Source of the DNA: Deltaproteobacteria bacterium HGW-Deltaproteobacteria-18 | GTDB taxonomy: Bacteria > Desulfobacterota > Desulfovibrionia > Desulfovibrionales > Desulfomicrobiaceae | DNA length: 64,000 nt | NCBI GenBank assembly: GCA_002841885.1 | Contig: PHBE01000017.1 | Coordinates: forward strand, 1-64,000 | Direction of reading: 5' to 3' | Shown: piece by piece, positions 31,673-34,003 of the stretch | Numbering within the stretch: the stretch's first letter is position 1 | Layout: the number at the start of each line of letters is the position of its first letter | Translations under genes and position numbers: made by a program | The notes under the pieces: model-generated | Seen by the model: the letters and a program-made list of their open reading frames with translations, nothing else | Database searches by the model: none | Told to the model about the DNA's origin: nothing

Positions 31673-31743
31673 TCTGCGTTATTGCATATTGCGGTCAAAG
31701 GTGGCAGTGCACGGCGAACATTCTTTTCGAGATGGGGGATACC

Positions 31744-32337
31744 ATGAATATGTTGCCGATTCGCCGGGCCATCCTGAGCGTAACAGATAAATCAGGCCTT
31801 GAGGACTTTGCCCGCTTTCTGCAGGGCCATGGGGTGGAGCTTGTTTCCACCGGGGGCACCCGCAAGAAACTCGTCCAGGCGGGCCTTAAAGTCCGTTCCG
31901 TCAGCGATGTGACCGGTTTTCCGGAGATCCTGGGCGGCCGGGTCAAGACCCTGCACCCGCACGTGCACGCCGGAATTCTGGCGGACAAGGATGATGCCGC
32001 GCACATGCAGACCTTGAAGGACCTGCGGCTGTCTCCCTTCGATCTCATCTGCGTCAATCTCTACAATTTTGCCGAAGCCGTGCGCCAGACCCTGGAAGAC
32101 AAGCAGGCCGTGGAGCAGATCGACATCGGCGGGCCGACCATGCTGCGCGCTTCGGCCAAGAACTTTCATTCCGTGGCCGTGATCCCCGATCCGTCACACT
32201 ATGCCGAATGCATGCAGGAGATGAAGGGCAACGGCGGTTCCCTTTCCCTGGATTTCCGCAAGCGCATGGCCGTAGCGACTTTTGCCCTGACTTCGGAATA
32301 CGACCGCATGATCACCGAGTACCTGAGCCGCTCCTGA
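31744..32337 (+). CDS. purH: IMP cyclohydrolase (stand-alone PurH N-terminal domain)
   Basis: 197 residues of the MGS-like domain of PurH: AILSVTDKSGLEDFARFL, LVSTGGTRKKL, GGRVKTLHPHVHAGILA, VNLYNFAEAV, IDIGGPTMLRASAKN. It closes FAICAR to IMP, the last step of purine synthesis. The transformylase half is a separate gene at 36927-38201. ATG 31744 has GGGGGA 5 nt upstream and is chosen over ATG 31732. The short length is a natural stand-alone version, as the stop follows the domain end. Confidence 0.93.
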   Translation: MNMLPIRRAILSVTDKSGLEDFARFLQGHGVELVSTGGTRKKLVQAGLKVRSVSDVTGFPEILGGRVKTLHPHVHAGILADKDDAAHMQTLKDLRLSPFDLICVNLYNFAEAVRQTLEDKQAVEQIDIGGPTMLRASAKNFHSVAVIPDPSHYAECMQEMKGNGGSLSLDFRKRMAVATFALTSEYDRMITEYLSRS

Positions 32338-32380
32338 CGGAGCGGCCCGGCCGGCCCACGCCGGCAACGGAGAGAACACC

Positions 32381-34003
32381 ATAGCATCCAAACCTCTGGG
32401 TAACCTGACCGGCCTGAAGCCCAGCCAGATCACGGCCATTTCTCGTCTCTACAACAGGCGCTTTCCCGACCAGGGCGGGTTTACTCCCGACCAGGCCCGG
32501 GAGCTGGCCATCCTGAGCAGGGGCATAAGCCGCCAGATCGGCGTGCTCGTAAACCGCAAGGGCGTCCCGGTCATGGTGCTGGTCGGAGAGCAGGACGGCA
32601 TCCTGATCCCCGAACTCTCACGTCATCGCCAGGCCGATTCCAGACTGTCCGGCCTGCGCCTCCTGCACACCCATCTTGATTCGTCCCTGCTGACCCAGGA
32701 AGACCTCATGGACATGGTCTTTTTGCGTCTCGACGCGGTCTGCGTGCTTACGGTGTCTCCCGACGGAGCCCCCAGGACCTGCCAGATCGCGCACATCCTG
32801 CCTCCGAACACCGACGAGCTGCCCTATCAGGTCCACCCGGCCATGATCTGGGATGATGTGGACTTTGATTTCGGAGCGAACGTCAAGGCCCTGGAAGACG
32901 AACTCGCGCGTACGGGCCAGAGCGTGGCTGCCACGGCCCGCGAGGGCTCGGCCATTCTGGTCAGCGTGGCTTCCGAATCCAGAGGTGCGCAGGAACGCTC
33001 ACTGGCCGAGCTGGCAGAACTGGCGGACACGGCCGGACTGGAAGTGGTGGGGCAGGTCGTGCAGCGGGTGACCAAGGTCAATCCCAAGCTCATCCTGGGC
33101 CGGGGTAAACTTTCGGAACTTGAAGTATTGGCCCTGCAGAAGAATGCCGCGACTCTGGTCTTCGATCAGGAACTGACCCCCACGCAGCAGCGCAACCTGA
33201 GCCAGATCACCGAGCGCAAGGTTCTGGACCGCACGCAGCTCATTCTCGATATTTTCGCCCAGCACGCCCAAACCCGCGAAGGAAAGCTGCAGGTCGAGAT
33301 GGCCCAGCTCAAATACATGATGCCGCGTCTGGTGGGGCAGAATCGGGCCTTAAGCAGGCTGGCAGGGGGTATCGGTGGACGCGGTCCGGGCGAATCGCGC
33401 CTGGAGATGGATCGCCGCAAGATCCGCGAGCGCATCGCCCAGATCAAGACCGAGCTCGGGAGCGTGCGCAAGCACCGCAAGTCCACGCGCAGCCGCCGCG
33501 ACAAGGCCGGGCTGCCCATCGTCTCTCTGGTCGGGTACACCAACGCGGGCAAATCCACGCTCCTGAACACCCTGACCAAGAGCGTGGTCCTGGCCGAGAA
33601 CAAGCTTTTCGCGACGCTCGATCCCACCAGCCGCCGGCTGCGTTTTCCCGAGGACCGGGAAATCATCCTGACCGACACCGTGGGGTTCATCCGACATCTG
33701 CCGGCCGACCTGCGCGAGGCCTTCATGGCGACCCTGGAGGAACTCGAGAGCGCGGACGTGCTGGTGCATGTGGCCGACGCCTCGCACCCGGAGATGGACG
33801 CCCAGATCGAAGCGGTGGAGTCCATCCTGCGCGACCTGTCCATCGACGGAATTCCCCGCATCCTCGCCCTGAACAAGACAGACCGCATAAGCGAAGAGAC
33901 TCGCCAGACCTTGAGCTTCGTCTATCCTGACGCGGTCTTCATCTCCGCCCTCGAACGCCCGACCCTGGCTCCTTTGGTCGATCGCATCAAATCACTGCTG
34001 TGA
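32381..34003 (+). CDS. hflX: GTPase HflX, apparent AUA start codon
   Basis: 540 residues if translation begins at ATA 32381. The GTPase part shows G1 GYTNAGKST, G3 DTVGF and G4 NKTD; the N-terminal HflX domain has RLLHTHLDSSLLTQEDLMDM. HflX splits stalled ribosomes. The first normal start, GTG 32543, would cut off 54 in-frame residues (KPLGNLTGLKPSQ..., ISRQIGVLVNRKG) that look like the family's N-terminal extension. There is no in-frame ATG, GTG or TTG between the purH stop and 32381, and GGAG lies 8 nt before the ATA, so an AUA start (or an ATG-to-ATA change) is likely. Confidence 0.85.
   Translation: MASKPLGNLTGLKPSQITAISRLYNRRFPDQGGFTPDQARELAILSRGISRQIGVLVNRKGVPVMVLVGEQDGILIPELSRHRQADSRLSGLRLLHTHLDSSLLTQEDLMDMVFLRLDAVCVLTVSPDGAPRTCQIAHILPPNTDELPYQVHPAMIWDDVDFDFGANVKALEDELARTGQSVAATAREGSAILVSVASESRGAQERSLAELAELADTAGLEVVGQVVQRVTKVNPKLILGRGKLSELEVLALQKNAATLVFDQELTPTQQRNLSQITERKVLDRTQLILDIFAQHAQTREGKLQVEMAQLKYMMPRLVGQNRALSRLAGGIGGRGPGESRLEMDRRKIRERIAQIKTELGSVRKHRKSTRSRRDKAGLPIVSLVGYTNAGKSTLLNTLTKSVVLAENKLFATLDPTSRRLRFPEDREIILTDTVGFIRHLPADLREAFMATLEELESADVLVHVADASHPEMDAQIEAVESILRDLSIDGIPRILALNKTDRISEETRQTLSFVYPDAVFISALERPTLAPLVDRIKSLL

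Follow-up and report, generated by a model that had tools for sequence, protein, structure and literature searches.

Sequence evidence for a conserved non-AUG start codon, probably of the infC type, in long-form hflX

Introduction

Where does translation of an hflX gene begin when its frame holds none of the usual start codons ahead of what appear to be conserved residues? The question is raised by a locus in a 64,000-nucleotide stretch of bacterial DNA (hereafter “the window”), for which an earlier note had proposed initiation at an AUA codon. The textbook gene with a non-AUG start is infC, which begins with AUU, AUC or AUA and is autoregulated by IF3.

HflX proteins split 70S ribosomes (PMC9067457; PMC4770234) and recycle ribosomes under stress, with IF3 keeping the subunits apart (PMC9067457). 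Control through the leader has been described for hflX in Bacillales (a uORF motif; PMC8632094) and for hflXr in Listeria (rli80; PMC9067457), and both of these differ from a non-AUG hflX start. Non-canonical starts elsewhere are known to be repressed by IF3, including the GTC of sigR in Streptomyces, where the sigR start is GTC in 32 of 34 and GTT in two (PMC5472188). In S. aureus, infC (AUA), ccpN (AUA) and cvfC1 (AUU) start behind extended Shine–Dalgarno (SD) sequences, and in poor medium the non-canonical starts tested yielded ~10% of the output from AUG, with ccpN reaching up to 30% in rich medium (PMC13009471). The literature cited here was available only in part, and what we draw from it, here and below, extends no further than those parts.

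Materials and Methods

Long-form hflX loci were drawn from the window's own phylum and from the phyla of genomes G206, G207 and G209. The best 30 matches per search were taken as loci, and the remainder came from the match list, mostly by rank; counted from the listed matches, the set includes 159 of 163 that reach the N-terminus in the own phylum, 53 of 69 in the G206 phylum and 50 of 69 in the G207 phylum, while in the G209 phylum 47 of 48 were read. One of the latter (L226) is cut by a contig end, and its removal reduces 309 loci to 308. Nineteen further loci (L034–L052), partly from the same genomes as counted ones, stand outside this total. The anchor for start calling was the G of a GN..GLK motif (set by eye in L159, L249, L201 and L294), and of the candidate codons at −7 to −3 relative to the motif, whichever had the best SD was called as the start, so individual calls may be wrong. 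Below, “ATH” denotes ATA, ATC or ATT, and “canonical” denotes ATG, GTG or TTG.

Within the genus, 16 genomes had a match and 15 loci were compared, with single-contig genomes included and the partial match of G007 left out. For the control genes der and obg, a start was scored as canonical if the 14 codons leading to the match start included a canonical codon, using the best 30 loci per search from the own phylum only. Codon changes were counted on a FastTree tree of 148 full-length proteins; as 32 of its 145 inner branches are open (support <80), these counts are rough. The structure model covers residues 1–200 (20 sequences; mean pLDDT 77.7).

Results

The hflX Locus

The product meets the threshold for membership of the HflX family (TIGR03156; 463.2 bits versus a cut-off of 216.75) and carries the Pfam domains GTP-bdg_N, GTP-bdg_M and MMR_HSR1 (Table 1). 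That it splits 70S ribosomes is inferred, the literature covering only other HflX proteins. Its open frame (32327–34003; 558 codons) opens 18 codons upstream of the ATA. Both the ATA with its GGAG and the lack of any in-frame ATG, GTG or TTG before GTG 32543, on which the earlier note had built its proposal, are plainly there in the sequence.

Table 1. Features of the hflX locus, in window coordinates.
Feature	Position	Strand	Remarks
Two GC-rich hairpins, end of purH-like gene and gap before SD	32327..32365	+	Not shown to matter
SD GGAGAG	32369..32374	+	GGAG at 32369-32372; 8 nt from GGAG to start codon
hflX AUA start codon (inferred)	32381..32383	+	ATA in frame with TGA at 34001-34003
hflX, long-form HflX GTPase with N-terminal extension	32381..34003	+	540 codons plus stop; TIGR03156 over residues 191-539
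N-terminal extension, residues 1-190	32381..32950	+	Conserved in relatives; fold weakly like JAB1/MPN
GTG, first canonical codon in hflX frame, residue 55	32543..32545	+	Rejected as main start

A scan near the hflX start found neither a promoter-like nor a terminator-like site. The two hairpins have a z of −1.67, with 13 of 200 shuffles folding equally well; by eye, their arms co-vary in some genus members (GCCGCTCC/GGAGCGGC versus GCCGCCCC/GGGGCGGC). Upstream of hflX, at 31732–32337, a gene of 201 residues carries an MGS domain and only the first 58 of the 311 positions of the AICARFT/IMPCHase model; it resembles an N-terminal part of PurH standing alone.

Pfam gave no match in the N-terminal extension. 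With Foldseek, its model was closest to Pyrococcus JAMM1 (5ld9; probability 0.99, E 2.2e-3, TM 0.36), with RadC lower, and since no match reached E ≤ 0.001 the likeness to JAB1/MPN is a lead only. Residues 96–111 contain an HTH...D stretch, which we take to resemble a JAMM motif; four relatives carry RTQ in place of HTH, making an active protease in the extension doubtful.

Placing the Start

At the homologous position, 10 of the 15 genus loci carry ATA and the other five ATC, none of them ATG, behind a GGAG-type SD whose ACGGAG is invariant in an alignment of 11 genus loci. The other related loci read alongside these likewise have ATA, ATC or ATT at this position (CTG ATA in L051). The AUA start put forward in the earlier note is supported by this pattern.

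An error of sequencing or assembly would need to change only a single base to make ATA from ATG, but the ATA and ATC readings come from separate assemblies, and because they extend to all 15 loci, single-contig genomes among them, a base-call error can be excluded; we give that idea practically no weight. Nor can we assign more than a very slight chance to GTG 32543 as the true start of a 486-residue protein. As the first canonical codon it is the call expected from a gene finder limited to ATG, GTG and TTG, yet the 54 residues ahead of it, judged conserved in the earlier note, are indeed conserved in relatives: summed over ungapped pairs of the 15 genus loci, residues 2–55 show 730, 346 and 2282 differences at codon positions 1, 2 and 3, and 1838 synonymous versus 818 non-synonymous codon differences, much like residues 56–190. 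A canonical codon is found at residue 55 in 46 of 148 relatives (with an SD in nine), and the position at which a canonical codon first occurs downstream varies widely, between +2 and +107. V55 itself lies within a predicted strand (residues 53–57, after helices 14–24 and 36–49), so a start there would cut the domain inside that strand. Upstream coding constraint and this position together rule out GTG 32543 as the main start. The gene might also yield two products: a long form made sparingly from AUA and a short form, resembling the E. coli core, made abundantly from an internal canonical start. HflX without the extension does occur elsewhere in the phylum, and a canonical codon with an SD of ≤ −5 within 3 residues is present near residue 66 in 45% of the 148 relatives and near residues 211 and 224 in 30%; around the core start, however, the share is 3–18% (every third residue, 180–207) and 24% at 210, and the sites near residue 66 fall in a predicted strand (63–68), leaving this reading, in our judgment, distinctly improbable. 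Frameshifting from the upstream gene is disfavoured, on indirect evidence, because the in-frame upstream stop lies anywhere from 4 to 86 codons away across relatives while SD and start stay together. Initiation of hflX at AUA is well supported by the sequence; that it takes place there in the cell is inferred.

Start Codons across Four Phyla

Among the 308 surveyed loci the start was ATH only in 231, CTG or ACG in 26, canonical in 45 and both kinds in six, with no locus lacking a candidate, so that 257 carry a non-canonical codon only; the start contexts are distinct in 307. In the same order, the counts are 133, 3, 20 and 3 for the own phylum (159 loci), 49, 0, 4 and 0 for the G206 phylum (53 loci), 26, 5, 18 and 1 for the G207 phylum (50 loci), where canonical starts are commonest, and 23, 18, 3 and 2 for the G209 phylum (46 loci). 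An ATH start is present in 42 of the 54 families and 77 of the 98 genera of the own phylum, with canonical starts only in 10 families and 16 genera. From the upstream stop (up to 60 codons inspected) to the domain, 177 of the 231 ATH loci have no ATG, GTG or TTG; some in-frame canonical codon is present in the examined stretch of the remaining 54, in which other starts cannot be excluded for that reason.

CTG, an even rarer start codon in bacteria, was called in 16 of the 46 loci of the G209 phylum (among L203–L232 and L313–L329); by eye, codon −3 before the GN motif in this phylum is CTG, TTG or ATG, and the next codon varies. A match was present in 79 plasmid records, but only in two does it extend over ≥80% of the query; these are two Fusobacterium loci, each with an ATG start. 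Given these two loci, the 45 canonical starts and the 10 families with canonical starts only, the non-AUG start of hflX is neither universal nor essential. Even so, as far as can be judged from sequence, a conserved non-AUG start at the homologous position appears to be the usual state of long-form hflX in these four phyla. The earlier note had treated the locus as a single odd gene: the AUA start stands, but the pattern is wider than one gene and takes in ATC, ATT and CTG as well.

SD Strength and Codon Changes

The median SD duplex energy is −8.3 kcal/mol for ATH starts, −8.4 for CTG or ACG and −4.2 for canonical starts, and this pairing of a stronger SD with a weaker start codon looks like compensation. 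An SD of ≤ −5 kcal/mol precedes 94.8% of the 231 ATH starts, and the spacing from start to last SD tetramer is 5–9 nt in 197 of them. When ATH only and an SD of ≤ −5 kcal/mol are required together, 71% of the 308 starts qualify versus 0–8% at eleven control offsets within these loci; once the SD requirement is dropped, the figures are 75% at the start versus 5–49% at the control offsets, the 49% arising at one offset. On the tree, the 130 AUN starts (123 ATH and 7 ATG) imply a minimum of 30 changes within the ATA, ATC and ATT set versus five between ATG and ATH, and canonical and non-canonical starts are separated by nine changes (mean of 14.5 and minimum of 12 after shuffling). A single base change would equally give ATG, and the few ATG–ATH changes may thus be read as evidence for a codon set kept by selection.

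Control Genes

The start is canonical in 27 of 30 loci for der, in 27 of 30 for obg and, by a motif-based rule, in all 29 located for rrf (one of the 30, L459, was not located). Three of those counted as non-canonical (der L370 and L374, obg L403) have an ATG just outside the stretch that the rule inspects; der L378 shows no ATG just beyond it either. By comparison with these genes, the non-AUG start seems specific to the gene and not a genome-wide habit, at least in the own phylum, the only one in which this was compared. For infC, the positive control (best 30 loci), the rule applied to der and obg finds no canonical codon in 20, and in eight of the remaining ten the codon is a GTG after GAG, within the SD; by eye, most loci have ATA, ATC or ATT near the expected start. 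The infC of the window's own genome lies on the same contig, ~2 kb outside the window, and reads GGAGGAATGAGAT-ATT, the ATT following GGAGG with no earlier in-frame canonical codon. Short-form hflX (20 loci) was mixed as a control, L423, L425 and L427 having no in-frame ATG, GTG or TTG before the match.

Two side observations concern individual families. The short-form hflX of the family holding L423, L425 and L427 (L426 being alike) seems to start at ACG. In obg L407 and L421 (genomes G079 and G116; one family) a stop is followed by CCG ATC AAA TTT, and obg may start at this ATC as a possible further ribosome-GTPase gene with a non-AUG start.

Discussion

We consider it probable that hflX has a non-AUG start of the infC type with restrained output, a view for which there are no expression or N-terminus data. 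Translation would begin at AUA 32381, which the initiator tRNA would read as fMet via a third-position mismatch, assisted by a strong SD. Selection would keep a near-cognate set (AUA, AUC and AUU, more rarely CUG and ACG), in which each codon is one mismatch from AUG and from which GUG and UUG, which IF3 tolerates, are excluded. We propose that HflX is made at a low rate because IF3 rejects these codons; by inference, its synthesis should climb once IF3 activity per 30S subunit drops, and HflX would then share its mode of control with IF3, whose infC (AUU) lies on this contig as well. The conserved weak start suggests deliberate throttling of HflX at the first step of translation. That lowered expression from AUA would suit a stress GTPase, as the earlier note had it, is an inference without expression data. 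IF3 sensing, taken alone, has close to an even chance and rests on codon identity and analogy with infC.

A throttle without IF3 gating is quite possible, if short of probable: the non-AUG start would constitutively keep a ribosome-splitting protein scarce, sensing neither IF3 nor stress. This explanation overlaps with the one we favour and has the same sequence evidence behind it, and it is consistent with S. aureus, in which the output of non-canonical starts is about a tenth of that from AUG in poor medium and clearly depends on the medium for one of three (PMC13009471). A low level could, however, also be had from GTG or TTG or from a weak SD, yet the SDs are strong, and the hflX codons are those that IF3 discriminates against, in common with infC. 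What inclines us towards IF3 gating over a mere throttle is that each codon used departs from AUG by one mismatch, with GUG and UUG left out. More speculatively, and to our mind rather unlikely as a whole, long-form hflX and infC might form one multi-phylum circuit, in which IF3, the factor keeping free 30S subunits apart, restrains via the start codon the synthesis of HflX, the producer of free subunits, and the ratio of IF3 to 30S sets splitting capacity; competition with IF3 might even allow HflX to lift its own repression, as its 30S cross-link site is very similar to that of IF3 (PMC4770234).

Among the matches listed from the open-access literature, which comprised mostly titles and abstract openings and included few subscription journals, we found no report of a non-AUG hflX start. 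In the literature consulted, as far as it was available, infC is the sole gene whose non-AUG start is described in widely separated bacteria, and hflX would be the second. If this holds, the rescue of ribosomes and the fidelity of initiation would be linked through a second gene of this sort whose product works on the subunits on which IF3 acts, and there would be a testable reason for some starts avoiding AUG. Annotation limited to ATG, GTG and TTG would leave long-form HflX truncated or with a wrong start in many genomes, hiding its N-terminal domain—an inference not drawn from public annotations.

In protein terms, the gene resembles known HflX/GTPBP6 in its TIGR03156 match and its three Pfam domains, but has ~190 residues before that match where E. 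coli HflX has an extension of 22 (PMC4770234). With ccpN and cvfC1 it shares a conserved AUA or AUU behind an extended SD, the S. aureus starts yielding, in poor medium, roughly one tenth of what AUG yields; those are different genes, found by ribosome profiling, and hflX does not appear in the available text of that paper (PMC13009471). The stress gene sigR likewise has a non-canonical start preceded by an extensive SD, and its repression by IF3 has been shown (PMC5472188, in the part available), whereas sigR uses GTC or GTT within Streptomyces and the hflX pattern spans four phyla with other codons, on sequence evidence only. The difference from infC is that infC is self-controlled, while IF3 control of hflX, itself only inferred, would hit another protein. 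What hflX shares with infC is that a gene for a factor acting on ribosomal subunits has retained, in distantly related bacteria, a near-cognate start preceded by an SD, with the same kind of codon used by infC in this phylum.
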